Of a stretch of 64,000 nucleotides of DNA, positions 44,105-50,957 are shown piece after piece. The notes under the pieces are model-generated. The model was not told where the DNA came from and searched no databases. It worked only from the letters and a program-made list of their open reading frames with translations. This DNA comes from Acidobacteriota bacterium. Lineage in GTDB: Bacteria; Acidobacteriota; Terriglobia; Terriglobales; Acidobacteriaceae. Both the position numbers and the translations under genes were made by a program. Positions within the stretch are counted from its first letter, which is position 1. Each line of letters starts with the position of its first letter. The stretch spans positions 1,674,001 through 1,738,000 of the forward strand of contig JACPYL010000010.1 of assembly GCA_016196065.1 (NCBI GenBank), written 5' to 3'.

Positions 44105-44134
44105 TTGACGCTACCCCTCTCCAAACCGTATCCT
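44105..44134 (+). promoter_or_regulatory. Promoter of the iron operon
   Basis: TTGACG (44105-44110), an 18-base spacer, and TATCCT (44129-44134). Transcription would begin near 44141, at the edge of the Fur-like box. Confidence 0.5.
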
Positions 44135-44141
44135 ATTGATA

Positions 44142-44164
44142 TTGAAATTGAAATTCATTTTCAA
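44142..44164. promoter_or_regulatory. Fur box
   Basis: A 23-base AT-rich palindrome with 10 of 11 base pairs symmetric: TTGAAA and TGAA on the left, TTCA and TTTCAA on the right, around a central A. This is the form of Fur-family operators. It covers the predicted transcription start of the FTR1 operon, 23 bases before the ATG, so iron-bound Fur should repress it. Confidence 0.75.
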
Positions 44165-44186: not shown

Positions 44187-45437
44187 ATGCTCCAGGCATT
44201 CATCATTACCTTGCGCGAAGGTGTAGAAGCGGCCCTGATCGTCGGTATCACGCTGGCGTATCTTGCCAAGATCGGCCGTAGCGACCTGCGCAAGTCGGTT
44301 TACGCCGCCCTCGCCGCGGCCTTTGTCGGCTCGATCGGCGCCGCCGTCCTAATTTCCCGCCTGCATTTGAACCAGGACATCTTCGAAGGTTGGGTCATGC
44401 TGGTGGCTGCCGCCTTCGTCGTCACCATGATCATCTTCATGATGAAGACTGGGCGCAAGATGAAAGGCGAAATCGAAGGCAAAATCGGTCTGCTGGCCCG
44501 TGGCGATGCCTGGATCGGCTTGTTCCTTTTTGTCTTTCTGATGGTCCTGCGCGAGGGAGTGGAAACGGTCCTCATCCTGTCGGCGGTGACACTGAACTCG
44601 AGTGAACTGCTGAGCTTCATCGGCACCAGCGCGGGAGTGATTGTCGCGGTGGCGTTCGGTGTGATGTTCGTCAAGGGAAGCGTCAAGGTCAACCTGCAGA
44701 AGTTTTTCAAAGTCACAACCGTGATCCTGTTCTTTGTCGCGACCCAACTTGTGATTTCTGGCCTGCACGAGCTTTCTGAAAACGGAGTGCTTCCCTCTTC
44801 ACGCGAAGAGATGGCGATCATTGGGCCGATCGTCCGCAACGATTTGTTTTTCTTCATTACGATCCTGGTGCTGGCTGCGTTGATGGTGCTGTTTGAAATG
44901 AAAAGCCGCCAACCGGTGGACCTGCCCGCCGAAGGCGCGGCCCGCCGCAAAGCCCTCTGGACAGCACGCCGCGAGCGGCTTTGGATGGCCTCGGTTTACG
45001 TTTGCTCCTTTATCTTCATTGTGATGGTGACGGCTGGATTCATTTACGAAAAGAGCGCGAGCGCGTTGTCGCCCGCAGCGGAAGTCGCCTTCGCGAATGG
45101 CAAAGTCAGCATCCCGTTGAATCAGGTGTACGACGGAGAGTTGCATCGTTTCGAAACCAAGGTGGGAGCGGTCGAAGTACGTTTCTGGGTCTACCAGAAG
45201 CCTGACGGCAAGGTTGCGACGTTGTTCGACGCCTGCGAAATCTGCGGCGCGGTCGGATTCTACAAAGGTGCAACCGGGATCATCTGCAAGAATTGCGCGG
45301 CGCCGATCAATCCACAGTCGGTGGGCATGCCGGGTGGGTGCAATCCGATCCCGTTGAAGGCGGACGTAACCAGCGACGCTGTCATCATCTCGGAGGCGGA
45401 CGTAGCGGCCGGAAGCCACTACTTCGAGCAAAAGTAG
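44187..45437 (+). CDS. FTR1-family iron permease fused to DUF2318 domain
   Basis: 416 residues. The first ~275 residues are an FTR1 permease with seven hydrophobic segments and two REGVE motifs (R10-E14 and R122-E126), the REXXE iron-binding signature. A further membrane segment near 268-288 leads to a periplasmic DUF2318 domain with C350-x2-C353, C367-x2-C370 and C385, likely to bind iron or an Fe-S/redox centre. It is headed by a Fur box and followed after one base by two FtsX-like permeases and an ATPase. Role inferred: ferrous/ferric iron import across the inner membrane. Confidence 0.9.
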   Translation: MLQAFIITLREGVEAALIVGITLAYLAKIGRSDLRKSVYAALAAAFVGSIGAAVLISRLHLNQDIFEGWVMLVAAAFVVTMIIFMMKTGRKMKGEIEGKIGLLARGDAWIGLFLFVFLMVLREGVETVLILSAVTLNSSELLSFIGTSAGVIVAVAFGVMFVKGSVKVNLQKFFKVTTVILFFVATQLVISGLHELSENGVLPSSREEMAIIGPIVRNDLFFFITILVLAALMVLFEMKSRQPVDLPAEGAARRKALWTARRERLWMASVYVCSFIFIVMVTAGFIYEKSASALSPAAEVAFANGKVSIPLNQVYDGELHRFETKVGAVEVRFWVYQKPDGKVATLFDACEICGAVGFYKGATGIICKNCAAPINPQSVGMPGGCNPIPLKADVTSDAVIISEADVAAGSHYFEQK

Positions 45438-45438
45438 G

Positions 45439-46701
45439 ATGTTCCCACGCCTTGTCTACGAATCGTTCCGCCGCCAGACCCGGCGCAAACTGCTGGCCGG
45501 GGTCGCCATCACTTTAGGCGTTGCGGTCGCAACCGCGATGATTGCCGTCGCTACTGATATCGGCGACAAGATCAGTCGCGAACTGCGTACTTACGGCGCA
45601 AACCTGGTCGTCACTCCGCAAGAAGATACGCTCGATGTAGAAATCGGTGGAGTCAATCTCAAACCGCCGAGTGACGGCGCTTTTCTTAATGAAGCAGACC
45701 TTCCCAAGATTCGGGGAACATTCTGGCATCACAACATCGTTGGATTCTCACCCATGCTGCCCGTCACGGCGGCCCTCGGAGACAAGTCAAACGCCACCGT
45801 GCCGGTGCTAGGAACGTACTTCTCAAAGCCCGTTCACTTCGGCAAAGATGATTTTGCGACTGGTGTCCGCATCACCCATCCGTGGTGGAAGGTGCAAGGC
45901 GCATGGCCAGACGACAATTCGCAGGACGTGCTGGCCGGTGAACATCTCGCCGCAAAGCTGTCTGTCACAACGGGCGATACCCTTGTGCTTGCGGGCAAAC
46001 CGCATCGAGTGAGCGGCATTCTGTCGACCGGGGGAACGGAAGACGATCAGATCGTTGCGCCCATCGCGCTCGCGCAGGAAATCCTTGGCAAGCCGGGAGC
46101 GGTGCGGCGCATTTACGTCAGCGCCCTGACCAAGCCCGAAGATGCACTCGCCCGGCGTGATCCGAAGACGATGAATCCGGAATTGTTTGATCGCTGGTAC
46201 TGCTCGCCCTACGTGCAGTCGATTGCCTATCAATTGCAGGAAGCCATTCCGCACTCGCATTCCGAACAGATACGGCAAGTTGCGCAGAATGAAGGCACGG
46301 TGCTTTCGCGCATTAAAGGATTGATGCTGTTGGTGACGTTGGCCGCGTTGTTCGCGTCGGCGCTGGCCGTGTCCGCCGCGATGGCCACCGCGATTTTCGA
46401 GCGCCGCGTAGAAGTTGGACTCATGCGGGCGCTGGGCGCGGGAAGCTTCGCGGTGGCGGCGCTGTTCTTCGCGGAAGCCTTGCTGCTGGCCCTGATCGGC
46501 GGTGTCGCGGGCTTTGCCGCCGGATCCATGCTCGCTCACCAGATCGGTCGCTCCATTTTCAATTCGCAAATTTCGATTGAACCGGTGCTCTTCCCGATCA
46601 TCCTGGCCATTGCAGTGTTTGTAACCTTCGCGGGAAGCGCTGCGGCGATCCGGCGAGCCGTGAAGTTCGATCCCGTGTTCGCGCTGCGAGGGGAAGCATG
46701 A
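45439..46701 (+). CDS. MacB/FtsX-like ABC permease, first
   Basis: 420 residues: an N-terminal membrane segment (about 18-38), a periplasmic MacB-type domain (about 40-290), and the C-terminal FtsX domain with three segments (about 297-405), including ERRVEVGLMRALGAGSFAV, the conserved coupling motif. It starts one base after the FTR1 stop and overlaps the next permease by ATGA. In Campylobacter and related P19 iron systems, a pair of such permeases with an ATPase accompanies FTR1; energising iron release or delivery is the likely role. Confidence 0.88.
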   Translation: MFPRLVYESFRRQTRRKLLAGVAITLGVAVATAMIAVATDIGDKISRELRTYGANLVVTPQEDTLDVEIGGVNLKPPSDGAFLNEADLPKIRGTFWHHNIVGFSPMLPVTAALGDKSNATVPVLGTYFSKPVHFGKDDFATGVRITHPWWKVQGAWPDDNSQDVLAGEHLAAKLSVTTGDTLVLAGKPHRVSGILSTGGTEDDQIVAPIALAQEILGKPGAVRRIYVSALTKPEDALARRDPKTMNPELFDRWYCSPYVQSIAYQLQEAIPHSHSEQIRQVAQNEGTVLSRIKGLMLLVTLAALFASALAVSAAMATAIFERRVEVGLMRALGAGSFAVAALFFAEALLLALIGGVAGFAAGSMLAHQIGRSIFNSQISIEPVLFPIILAIAVFVTFAGSAAAIRRAVKFDPVFALRGEA

Positions 46702-47858
46702 GCGCTTCGCCGATTCTGCACACACCGCAGCAGGTTGCTGATCGCCGTTCCGCAGTTCCGCACACGTCGATGTTCGTCCGGATGCTGATTCGTGCCGCTG
46801 TCCTGCGCCGCGGACGCGCCGCTTCGGCATTGTTTGCGATGGTGGTCGCCGCCGCCGTGGCAACCGCGATGATGAATCTGTACGTTGACGTGCAAGCGAA
46901 GTTGCGTACCGAGTTCCGAAGCTACGGGGCGAATGTCGTAGTCGTGGCAAGGGAAAGTCAGCCATTCCCATCCGATGCGCTCAGAAAGATTGAATCAACG
47001 TTAGGCCCCAAGACGTTGGCAGTTCCCTTCTCGTATGCCGTTGCACGAACGCAGGACGGACAATCCGTGGTCGTCGTTGGCACCGACTTTGCCCGCGCCC
47101 ACCAACTGAATCACTGGTGGAATGTCAGTCGTTGGCCGAGTGCTTCCGGAGACGCGCTGATTGGCATGCGCGCTGCTACTGTTGTGAGCCCCGAGCGCAA
47201 GCCGTTTGACCTGACTTTCCAGGGGCGCACTCTTCACCTGACTCCCGCTGGCCTGCTGCAAACCGGCGCCGGCGAGGACAGCCGGATTTATCTGGAGCAA
47301 TCGGAATTCACGAACTGGACTGGCGTTGCGCCGTCGACGATCGAGATTGCAGTCAACGGGACCACCACGGAGATCGAACAGCAAATCCAGCAACTCGGTG
47401 CTTTGCTTCCTACCGCCGATGTTCACCCGGTACGGCAGATTATGGAAGGCGAAGCGAACGTCCTCAATAAGACTCGGGCCACGCTCTACGCCGCCGCGAC
47501 TCTAATCGTGTTGACCTCCGCGCTGTGCGTCCTCGCCACGTTGATTGGTTGGGTATTTGATCGCCGTCGCGACTTCGCCATCATGAAAGCGCTCGGCGCA
47601 TCCGAGCGACTGGTGAACGGATTCTTCGCCGCCGAAGCTGCTGCCTTAGGCGCAATCGGGGCGGTGCTCGGATTTGCCATCGGAATCGGCGTCGCCGTAT
47701 GGATCGGGCGCACAAACTTTCATGCGCCCGTAGTACCCCGCTTCAGCGTGTTCCCGTATGTACTGGCCGGCAGCATTCTGGTAGCGCTCATCTCCGCGGT
47801 CGTGCCGATCGGATTATTGCGCCGTGTGCAACCCGCGCTCATACTGAGGGGAGAGTGA
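46698..47858 (+). CDS. MacB/FtsX-like ABC permease, second
   Basis: 386 residues with the same plan as its neighbour: one N-terminal membrane segment (about 34-54), a periplasmic domain, and a three-segment FtsX domain with DRRRDFAIMKALGASERLV. It is the heterodimer partner of the first permease. The ATG overlaps the previous stop and its own stop (TGA) overlaps the ATPase ATG by one base. Sequence identity to the first permease is low, so the duplication is old. Confidence 0.87.
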   Translation: MSASPILHTPQQVADRRSAVPHTSMFVRMLIRAAVLRRGRAASALFAMVVAAAVATAMMNLYVDVQAKLRTEFRSYGANVVVVARESQPFPSDALRKIESTLGPKTLAVPFSYAVARTQDGQSVVVVGTDFARAHQLNHWWNVSRWPSASGDALIGMRAATVVSPERKPFDLTFQGRTLHLTPAGLLQTGAGEDSRIYLEQSEFTNWTGVAPSTIEIAVNGTTTEIEQQIQQLGALLPTADVHPVRQIMEGEANVLNKTRATLYAAATLIVLTSALCVLATLIGWVFDRRRDFAIMKALGASERLVNGFFAAEAAALGAIGAVLGFAIGIGVAVWIGRTNFHAPVVPRFSVFPYVLAGSILVALISAVVPIGLLRRVQPALILRGE

Positions 47859-49111
47859 TGGTCGACGCGAAGGTTCCAGCCATGATCGAACTCAAAAACG
47901 TAACCAAGAGTTATCCAGCCAAGGCCGAGCAGAATAACGGCGGCTTGATTCGCGCGCTTGACGGCATCGCGCTATCGATTGCGCCCGGCGAGTGGGTTGC
48001 CATGATGGGCCCATCCGGGTCCGGCAAGAGTACGCTGGTGAATTTAATTGGGTGTCTCGACCGCCCAACGACAGGCGAAATATGGCTCGACGGTGAGAAC
48101 GTTGCCGGAATCAGCGCCGCTGACCTGAACCGTGTGCGGGCTGAAAAGATTGGATTTGTTTTCCAGCAGTTTCACATGATCCCGTATCTCACCGCCGTGG
48201 AGAACGTCATGCTTGCACAGTACTTCCACAGCATGACGGACGAAAAGGAAGCGCTCGAAGCGCTCGATCGAGTCGGGCTGAAAGAGCGCGCCTACCATCT
48301 GCCCTCGCAACTCTCGGGTGGTGAGCAGCAGCGAGTTTGCATTGCGCGCGCGCTCATCAACGATCCGAAAATTGTTCTGGCTGACGAACCGACGGGCAAC
48401 CTCGATGCCGCGAATGAAGATATCGTTCTACGTTTGTTGCGCGAACTGCACCAGCAGGGGCGCACGATCGTAATGGTCACTCATGACCCCGTGGTCGCAC
48501 GGCTCGCCGACCGCCGCGTCGAACTTCATCACGGAAAGATCGCTGCCCAGGAAGTCTTCTTCATGGCAGACGAAGAACAGTTCGACGAAATCCTGGAAGA
48601 GTTATTCGTGCTGCAAGAGCACGGAGAGATCGCGGAAAGCGATCGCATGGAAGTTCACGGCGCGCTGCCCGTATCGATTGCGCTGGAGAAATTGCAGGGG
48701 ATGGACCTGGTGACCACGCGCCCGCATCCTCCCGAGTCGCACCATCACAAGACGTTCGTGAACCCATGTCATGACGCGCTCAAGCCGGCGGGAGTATCCA
48801 TTGGCGACGGCGCGCTGATCGTAGAACTCACGGCTCGTGGTATGAAGCGTGCTGGAGACATCATCCGCCGCCATCGGCTCGCGGAACGGCTCTTTACCGA
48901 CTCGCTCGCAATGGATAGCGAAACTGAAATCGAACAGCAAGCCTGTAAGTTCGAACATATCCTGTCCGCCGAGGCGACAGACAAGATCTGCACGTTCCTC
49001 AATCATCCACGCACGTGCCCGCATGGGTCGCCGATTCCGCCTGGACCGTGCTGCGGAAAACAGGTGCAGGCTTCGCAGACGTCTTCGGCGATGTCACATC
49101 AGAGCTCGTAG
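47858..49111 (+). CDS. LolD/MacB-type ATPase fused to a DtxR/MntR-like metal-sensing domain
   Basis: 417 residues. Residues 1-235 are an ABC ATPase: Walker [10 protein letters not shown] (51-59), signature LSGGEQQ (152-158), Walker B IVLADEP (172-178), switch H209. Residues ~240-395 resemble a DtxR-family repressor: a degenerate winged helix (about 240-330) with a His/Cys-rich insert ([16 protein letters not shown]), then [10 protein letters not shown] (H339, E343) and QQACKFEH (C363, E366, H367), matching DtxR ligands H79/E83 and C102/E105/H106, and a Cys-rich end [13 protein letters not shown]. One continuous frame. An internal ATG (48563) has AGGAAG eight bases upstream and could give a free repressor. 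Confidence 0.85.
48549..48565 (+). promoter_or_regulatory. Internal ribosome binding site and start inside the ATPase-DtxR gene
   Basis: AGGAAG (48549-48554) lies eight bases before ATG 48563 (Met236), exactly at the domain junction. Initiation here would give a 182-residue DtxR-like protein on its own. Confidence 0.45.
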
Positions 49112-49157: not shown

Positions 49158-50876
49158 CTAGGGCTGCTTCCACACTTCCTTCCCGCCCACCATCGTCCAC
49201 ACTACCTTGGCATCTTTGATCTTGTTCGCGGGAATCTTGAACAGGTCCTCGGACACAATCACGAGATCCGCATACTTCCCCGGAGTGATCGAGCCGCGAT
49301 TTTCCTCGACAAAATTCGCGTAGGCTCCGTTGATCGTGTATCCGCGAATTGCTGTTTCCAGATCGACAGTCTGCTCCGGCACCCATCCACCGTCGGGTTT
49401 ACCGTCAAGTCCCTGACGCGTCAGAGCCGTGTAGATGCCGATCAGGGGCTCCATCTCAGCCACATTCCAATCGGATGCGAAAGCCAGGTTCGCGCCAGAA
49501 TCGTGCAGGCTGCGGAAAGCCCACGCGTACTTCCAGCGCTTCGGGCCGACCGCTTTTGCCCACTGGCCAGTGATATCCGGAGCGCAATGGCGTGGCTGCA
49601 TACAGGCTGTGACACCAAGCTGCTTGAAGCGCGGAATATCCTGCGCGTTAAGACACTCGATGTGGACAAGTTCATCTCGGCGGTCGCGCGGACCATTCTG
49701 TTTCTCGGCATATTCAATCGCGTCCAGCGCCGTGCGAATTCCACGATCGCCGATCGAATGGATAAATACCTGGAACTTCATGCGGTCGAGCCGCGCCACA
49801 ACTTGTTTGAACTCCTCGGGAGGATAATCCAGTTCTCCGCGCGTTCCTGGACGATCCGCATACGGCTCCAGCAGAGCTGCTGTGTGCGGTTCGATCACAT
49901 CGTCGATATAGAGTTTGACCGCCGCTACTCGCAGCCGGTCGTCGTTGTACTGATGACGCGCTTCATCGAACTGTTGCAACGTTGCTTCGCTTGTTCCCCT
50001 CCGATGAAAAAGCGCGACTTGCAACCGCGCCGGGAGCTTGCCGTCGTCTTTTAGTTTCGAATAAATAGCGAGGTCCTCGAGATACGACTGCGGGTCGACG
50101 ATTGTCGTGATCCCGGCCGTCACAGCCGCGTTCATATTGGATTGAACACCCGCTAGCACCTGTCCCGGGCCAAGCGATGGTAGATGTTTCTGCAATTCGG
50201 CTTGGGAATCTGCTGAGAGGCCGGTGCTGCCGAATCCCGTCAGTACTCCAGTCGGTTCTCCAGTTTGTGGATCTTTTTCGATCTTCTCGGCAAAGAGTAT
50301 TTTGGTTGTCTTCTTATCGATGCCGAATTCTCGCAATGCTTCGCGATTCATCCATATGGTGTGATAGTCATACGCCACCAGAAATGCCGGACGCCCTCCC
50401 GTCAGCCCCTCCAAATCCCGCGCTGCCGGCAAGGTTCCATTCGGGAACACGGAGTAATTCCAGTTCTCGGCTTCAATCCACTTCAGTTCGGGGCGCTTCT
50501 CCGCGAATTCCCGCACCTGCTTTTGGAGGTCAGCGAGCGTATTGGCATTTTGAAACCGCAATACGTCCGGATTGCTGCCCAGTCGAACATGAAAATGAGA
50601 ATCGATGAAGCCAGGCAGCACCATCTTTCCGCCTGCATTGATCACATGGGTTGCGGATCCGATGTAGCGAGCAGCGTCCTTGTCATCTCCGACCCATGCA
50701 ATGCGATCCCCGCGAATCGCGACGGCTTGTGCCCATGGGAGGCTTGCATCGACGGTGTACACACGAGCATTGCGGAGCACGAAGTCCGCGGCATCGGCGC
50801 TTGGAGTTGTTTTGGGACTACATCCGATAGCGAGGCAAAGTAGAAGCGCGCAGAATAACATTACGACACGTCGCAT
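49158..50876 (-). CDS. YtcJ-like amidohydrolase lipoprotein
   Basis: A 572-residue metal-dependent hydrolase. ATG 50876 gives a lipoprotein signal (MRRVVMLFCALLLCLAIGC) with the lipobox cysteine. The metal site starts with GFIDSHFHV, and later histidines lie in FIHSIGDRGIRTALDA and HIECLNAQD; the terminal GSITPGKYADLVIVSED is typical of the amidohydrolase_3 group. It is probably anchored in the envelope and acts on an amide or imide; substrate unknown. Confidence 0.87.
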   Translation of the reverse strand: MRRVVMLFCALLLCLAIGCSPKTTPSADAADFVLRNARVYTVDASLPWAQAVAIRGDRIAWVGDDKDAARYIGSATHVINAGGKMVLPGFIDSHFHVRLGSNPDVLRFQNANTLADLQKQVREFAEKRPELKWIEAENWNYSVFPNGTLPAARDLEGLTGGRPAFLVAYDYHTIWMNREALREFGIDKKTTKILFAEKIEKDPQTGEPTGVLTGFGSTGLSADSQAELQKHLPSLGPGQVLAGVQSNMNAAVTAGITTIVDPQSYLEDLAIYSKLKDDGKLPARLQVALFHRRGTSEATLQQFDEARHQYNDDRLRVAAVKLYIDDVIEPHTAALLEPYADRPGTRGELDYPPEEFKQVVARLDRMKFQVFIHSIGDRGIRTALDAIEYAEKQNGPRDRRDELVHIECLNAQDIPRFKQLGVTACMQPRHCAPDITGQWAKAVGPKRWKYAWAFRSLHDSGANLAFASDWNVAEMEPLIGIYTALTRQGLDGKPDGGWVPEQTVDLETAIRGYTINGAYANFVEENRGSITPGKYADLVIVSEDLFKIPANKIKDAKVVWTMVGGKEVWKQP

Positions 50877-50957
50877 GGCTGCGAAGTGTAACACGCAGCG
50901 ATTCGATGCTCAGGCGTGATTTCTGCCCGTACCGGACGGAAACAAGCCAAGTCCGGA

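Follow-up and report, generated by a model that had tools for sequence, protein, structure and literature searches.

Textbook accounts of bacterial iron control centre on transcriptional regulation by Fur and DtxR. In the DtxR family of repressors, the primary metal site consists of Met10, Cys102, Glu105 and His106 in DtxR and of Asp8, Glu99, Glu102 and His103 in MntR, and the secondary site of ScaR includes Glu80, Cys123, His125 and Asp160 (PMC4805248). Substrate-sensing C-terminal domains are also found on ABC ATPases, namely the C2 domain of MetN and the domain of ModC, which differ from each other; MetNI and ModABC are the precedents for trans-inhibition (PMC10710835). A described operon of similar order is Campylobacter jejuni 1649-1656, which comprises FTR1, P19, a DUF2318 protein, two permeases, an ATPase and thioredoxins, with a Fur box upstream (PMC6083913). 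Genes 1651-1656 together with p19 are needed for optimal growth on iron from faecal extract, and 33 species are reported with “similar gene lengths” (PMC6083913). DtxR does not appear in the main text, and the available sections make no mention of a DtxR tail on the ATPase of this operon (PMC6083913).

We analyzed a window of 64,000 nucleotides of acidobacterial DNA carrying an operon in the same order of FTR1, DUF2318/FtrD, two ABC permeases and ATPase. Here, in contrast to C. jejuni, FTR1 and FtrD form one protein and the ATPase carries a DtxR tail. We found no description of an ABC ATPase-DtxR fusion in open-licence papers.

Operon and domain architecture

All four genes lie on the forward strand and either overlap or are 1 base apart. 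The first encodes an FTR1 iron permease and an FtrD-like domain as one protein (DUF2318; 44187-45437; Pfam E-values of 4.9e-39 for FTR1 and 1.6e-27 for FtrD-like) and is followed by MacB/FtsX-type permease A (45439-46701; MacB_PCD 4.7e-14, FtsX 2.6e-13) and permease B (46698-47858; FtsX 8.8e-16, MacB_PCD under its cut-off). The stop of permease B overlaps the start of the last gene, the ATPase-DtxR fusion (47858-49111). The next long open reading frame (49158-50894) is on the opposite strand and, by eye, is not a thioredoxin. P19 (PF10634) had no match in the genome of the window (0/1), with the control matching in only 1 of 14.

The fusion is 417 amino acids long in a single uninterrupted frame. 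Its LolD/MacB-type ATPase domain spans residues 9-233 or thereabouts (47882-48556), with ABC_tran matching residues 34-179 (E 1.6e-35) and with MacB and LolD as the best NCBIfam models, each under its own cut-off. The tail begins with helix 1 (residues 236-254; 48563-48619), which contains E244 and E247 and is delimited by alignment, AlphaFold2 and dN/dS. It continues with a degenerate helix-turn-helix (HTH; residues 257-289; 48626-48724) and a His/Cys-rich wing insert with the motif PHPPxxHxHKxxxNPCHD (residues 290-320; 48725-48817), seen in the alignments. The DtxR metal-binding/dimerisation domain follows (residues 325-394; 48830-49039), on the evidence of Pfam, PDB sequences and Foldseek, and a Cys-rich end motif, CPHGxPIPxGxCC, was found at residues 387-399 (49016-49054). 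The Pfam model Fe_dep_repr_C (PF02742) matches residues 325-394 with an E-value of 8.6e-25 (87 bits; cut-off, 27), and a PDB sequence search returned IdeR and DtxR as the solved relatives of the tail (best E 2.1e-13, tail residues 84-159). A profile search against PHROGs gave no match. The first-pass annotation, made from the letters alone, had read a complete LolD/MacB-type ATPase and a DtxR/MntR-like part in one frame and had proposed a profile search of the C-terminal part as a check; both domain matches bear this reading out, the one to the DtxR dimerisation domain being strong.

MetNI and ModABC are importers with binding proteins, whereas here a LolD/MacB-type ATPase stands beside FTR1; the likeness lies in a C-terminal domain that could in principle bind the substrate. 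The C-terminal domains of MetNI (C2) and ModC are not known to be of the DtxR fold.

Upstream of the operon, a sigma-70-like promoter (TTGACG-18-TATCCT; 44105-44134, forward strand) matches at 9 of 12 positions. Two such sites occur in the region against 1.7 expected, which makes this weak evidence alone; TTGAC and TATcCT are prominent in an alignment of 58 upstream sequences. Just past the -10 TATCCT and ahead of the FTR1 start lies a 23-bp palindrome, TTGAAATTGAAATTCATTTTCAA (44142-44164), a candidate Fur-box-like operator that we take to resemble a Fur box. Aligning the window with 57 other upstream regions showed conservation of at least 85% in 16 of its 23 columns and of at least 60% in the remaining 7. 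The palindrome matches nowhere else in the window, and shuffling gave an expectation of 0.00 matches. The genome encodes one Fur and one further PF02742 protein, separate from the fusion and with a full HTH by eye; FeoB_C has no match in it. Because of the Fur-like palindrome at the promoter and the presence of both Fur and a separate DtxR in the genome, transcriptional control could do without the tail.

A second, near-perfect copy of the palindrome, with 1 mismatch, is found elsewhere in the genome (G000:C25:351770-351792; L191:3271-3293), 17 bases ahead of a 302-amino-acid open reading frame that has a signal-like start and looks barrel-like by eye. The product is possibly an outer-membrane partner of the iron system.

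Metal-ligand positions and the DNA-reading part

We aligned the window with 80 related loci, the window's own group, hereafter “Terriglobia”. E244, E247, E248, H339, E343, E359, C363, E366, H367 and C378 were each present in 81 of 81 rows, as were C304 and H305 in the insert, where H295 was found in 78 and H297 in 79 rows. C387, H389, C398 and C399 were present in 80 of 81 rows, the remaining row ending at a contig end. This invariance is partly built in, since each of the 80 loci had to fit one of six peptide patterns, EQQACKFE included. C363, E366 and H367 are nonetheless invariant also in 17 pattern-free loci from an alignment of our phylum sample. In that alignment, E359 is replaced by Ala in one locus (L017) and H339 by Gln in four of the 17 (L018, L019, L020 and L029); with L194, this substitution occurs in five fusions from other families in all.

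Thus, the ligands named in the first-pass annotation (H339, E343, C363, E366 and H367) are placed as it had them and are complete within the Terriglobia set, whereas beyond that group C363, E366 and H367 are kept and H339 is not always. Its proposal that a His/Cys-rich insert occupies the wing likewise applies to the window's group but not to the 11 aligned fusions from other families, which lack the insert. CPHG by itself is not distinctive, as the canonical DtxR of the same genome has CPHG without CC.

When mapped by eye, E244, C363, E366 and H367 fall on the primary-site positions of DtxR and MntR. In our own position mapping, E244 is aligned with Asp8 and E247 with Glu11 of MntR, and E343, C387 and H389 fall on positions of the ScaR-type secondary site. 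The tail shares with the DtxR, IdeR, MntR and ScaR repressors the PF02742 domain, the metal-ligand positions, those of the primary site among them, and a fold match to IdeR. It differs from them in being acidic, in having no detectable PF01325, in its fusion to an ATPase, in lacking an SH3 or FeoA domain and in its Cys-rich end motif.

PF01325, the DNA-binding HTH of the family, has no match in the window at E ≤ 1 and none in the 10 non-Terriglobia ATPase tails searched (of 11 from other families) at E ≤ 10, whereas all 6 canonical acidobacterial DtxR proteins used as controls matched it at 39-67 bits (cut-off 26). For 18 members, PF01325 is absent from the first 25 of 48 families. The mean net charge of the winged-helix region is -13.2 in Terriglobia fusions (n = 81, insert included; residues 256-290 alone, -2.8), -6.8 in fusions of other families (n = 11) and -6.1 in FeoA-linked proteins (n = 19, range -10 to 0), compared to -0.5 in canonical DtxR (n = 8, range -4 to +1). 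By these sequence measures, the DNA-reading part of the tail is degenerate.

In the AlphaFold2 model of the tail alone (pLDDT 85.8, pTM 0.80), helix 1 is followed by a helix 2 that is very short and by helix 3; the wing, made of two strands, contains the insert, and the DtxR helices complete the model. The top Foldseek match to this domain-only model is IdeR (2it0_A; E 3.0e-7, 157 columns, TM 0.58 by query). The winged-helix topology is thus probably kept and, since the model keeps it, some DNA binding by the tail is conceivable. The full-length model was poor (pLDDT 65.2), and we base no conclusion on it, including on where the tail sits on the ATPase.

Spread of the fusion and operons without the tail

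When genomes were scanned at one per species, 103 relatives were obtained, and the best 80 of these, at 65-90% identity, form the Terriglobia set; by their record titles, these best 80 are all from Acidobacteria (Acidobacteriaceae, Terriglobia, Sulfotelmatobacter and others). Of the 80 loci, 62 have FTR1 upstream in the same orientation, and in the other 18 under 3 kb of sequence is available ahead of the fusion; two loci (L054 and L105) end at a contig end.

A tail match of some kind was found in 175 of the 297 genomes of the phylum sample. At E ≤ 1e-15 there were 61 matches in 60 genomes, the next best having an E-value of 5.8e-12. Twenty-one of the 61 are fused to an ATPase (the window, L010-L015, 11 others, L181, L194 and L195), 14 genomes of other acidobacterial families carrying a shorter version of the fusion. 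FTR1 and FtrD lie upstream in all 21 loci (the window, G074 and G026 among them), so that the fusion beside FTR1 recurs in the phylum sample. In every one of the 58 inspected matches of the 61, the domain is attached either to an FTR1-operon ATPase (21) or to FeoA (37). We also inspected 15 stretches with weaker matches, one of which (L145) was misplaced; 12 of the 15 were canonical DtxR by eye, L139 too, and L147 was missed by the motif.

The fusion is under strong purifying selection. Pooled dN/dS was lowest in helix 1 (0.041; residues 238-256) and the DtxR C-terminal domain (0.057), followed by the ATPase (0.078), the HTH (0.114) and the insert (0.128), and was highest in residues 400-412 (0.456); these values come from the 107 pairs with an overall dS of 0.1-1.0, which share sequences and hence are not independent. 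They suggest that constraint on helix 1 and on the metal domain is at least as strong as on the ATPase, and that it is weaker on the HTH and insert. In comparisons of the window with its relatives synonymous sites were saturated, leaving one usable pair only.

A frameshift separating two genes in related genomes had been named as the finding that would speak against the fusion. Related genomes instead carry it in a single frame: the 80 other loci and 20 phylum-sample genomes besides the window, other families included, together with purifying selection, rule out a frameshift or assembly artefact. We found nothing in support of an assembly or annotation error, and it is vanishingly improbable.

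The operon also occurs without the tail. Permease A was found in 43 of the 297 genomes (E ≤ 1e-20), 21 of which have a tailed ATPase. In a sister genus, g4 (L164-L177), 13 of 14 genomes have FTR1, FtrD, both permeases and a tail-less ATPase; in the stretch from the fourteenth (L168, genome G147), no recognisable ATPase follows the permease pair. The ATPase is tail-less also in G005, G291 and G236, the permease match of the last being weak. Among the remaining permease A genomes, G215 and G295 end at contig ends, and G011, G039 and G052 were outside the set that was read. One FTR1-operon ATPase without a DtxR tail (L180:254-895, reverse strand) has another short Cys/His tail, DACPNCGMNLFKKHEHQQ.

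The tail tree (65 rows, with Terriglobia subsampled to 30 and L181 omitted) sets the five canonical rows apart at 100/100 and places the ATPase-fused tails among FeoA-linked rows. The fused tails do not form a single clade, and a one-clade constraint was not rejected (p-AU 0.40) in this tree of few columns, long branches and many open forks. For the ATPases (52 rows; L024, L168, L179 and L183 omitted), a single clade of all tailed members was rejected (p-AU 0.025), and g4 is sister to the tailed ATPases of Terriglobia at 99/94. The rejection fits loss of the tail in g4, which would be the simple reading; two gains could also account for the pattern.

Possible roles of the tail and its FeoA-linked relatives

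Our combined findings suggest, with reasonable rather than high confidence, that the C-terminal part of the ATPase in these soil Acidobacteria is a metal-sensor module descended from DtxR repressors, serving as a cytosolic regulatory domain that gates the transporter, perhaps by trans-inhibition. Cytosolic Fe2+ (or Mn2+) would occupy the site to which helix 1 and the dimerisation domain both contribute, and the metal-filled tails of the ATPase dimer would alter their mutual contact. The altered tails would keep the nucleotide-binding domains apart, and ATP hydrolysis and FTR1-linked iron uptake would stop, a form of the trans-inhibition known from MetNI and ModABC. A Fur-type repressor acting at the promoter palindrome would control the operon on a slower time scale. 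That the sensor works on the transporter and not on DNA is quite likely. Confidence is lowest for the identity of the metal and for the sign of control, with inhibition an even bet. The first-pass annotation had offered gating as one of two ideas, and it gains from the retained ligand positions, the degenerate HTH, the association of the domain with two iron transporters and the tail-less sister operons. Counted against gating by trans-inhibition are the tail-less operon of the sister genus and the Gln and Ala variants at H339 and E359.

The other idea, that the protein doubles as a regulator, would have the tail bind DNA with metal, repress its own operon and couple the state of the transporter to transcription. 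Such bifunctionality would suit the parent family, whose members are repressors, as well as the modelled winged-helix topology and the 157 columns aligned to IdeR. It is nonetheless quite unlikely, given an acidic HTH region without a PF01325 match, the wing insert, the looser selection on the HTH than on helix 1 (dN/dS of 0.114 versus 0.041) and a conserved, Fur-like promoter palindrome in a genome that has Fur. The many conserved Cys and His residues (C304, H305, C378, C387, H389, C398 and C399), along with a related module on FeoA beside FeoB, would also be expected if the tail were an iron acceptor or chaperone, receiving Fe2+ from the permease in the cytosol and passing it on with no regulation. 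We consider this unlikely, as the DtxR-type ligand set is kept, helix 1 included, which better fits allosteric sensing, and sister operons manage without the tail.

In DtxR, PF02742 serves for dimerisation, and the regulatory site of ModC lies at a C-terminal dimer interface (PMC10710835), so that the tail might be a mere scaffold joining two ATPase subunits. Under this reading the ligand positions should vary freely; they are instead among the most conserved residues, and a purely structural role is very unlikely. If the sensing reading is correct, a DtxR sensor acts on the transporter protein itself and provides fast feedback on iron import. It would also show how a repressor can be recruited as part of a transporter, the domain being present, absent or remodelled in different lineages, and would offer a testable handle on the control of FeoA or the FTR1-linked ABC system.

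The other 40 of the 61 strong matches are represented by 37 that were inspected, and all 37 have FeoA behind the DtxR domain. feoB adjoins the gene in 35 of them; L129 has none in its stretch, and L209 ends at a contig end. The first 19 of these proteins all match PF02742 and FeoA in Pfam, and all have the helix-1 Glu pair and a CC end, mostly as CPHGxPIPxGxCC. They thus resemble the window's tail in their related DtxR domain, CC end and Glu pair, but differ in being fused to FeoA with no ATPase and, in 2 of 19 (L133 and L134), in lacking CPHG. PF01325 was matched by 4 of the 19 at E ≤ 1 (best 0.0027), and one has a net charge of 0; FeoA-linked relatives could be real feoB repressors. We tentatively put forward, at somewhat less than even chances, that a DtxR module dead for DNA binding is a general plug-in iron sensor, in some lineages carried on FeoA and gating FeoB, in others carried on the ATPase of the FTR1-linked transporter and gating that system, and that some feoB-adjoining “metal-dependent transcriptional regulators” are transporter subunits and not repressors. 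This suggests that a group of feoB-adjoining proteins annotated as regulators may be misnamed.

Beyond Acidobacteriota, the search covered plasmids only, and one relative among the matches was inspected. Plasmid pPRO1 of Pelobacter propionicus (Thermodesulfobacteriota) carries, at L184:2807-5498, feoB and then a Cys-type DtxR-FeoA with CPHGKPIPPGACC; this second protein is annotated as a “metal-dependent transcriptional regulator” and has no PF01325 match. Within the phylum, one DtxR-FeoA behind feoB (L135:7919-8470) is in frame with helices 2-3 and the wing gone and with helix 1 and the metal domain kept; judged by its sequence, it is a natural variant without the DNA reader.
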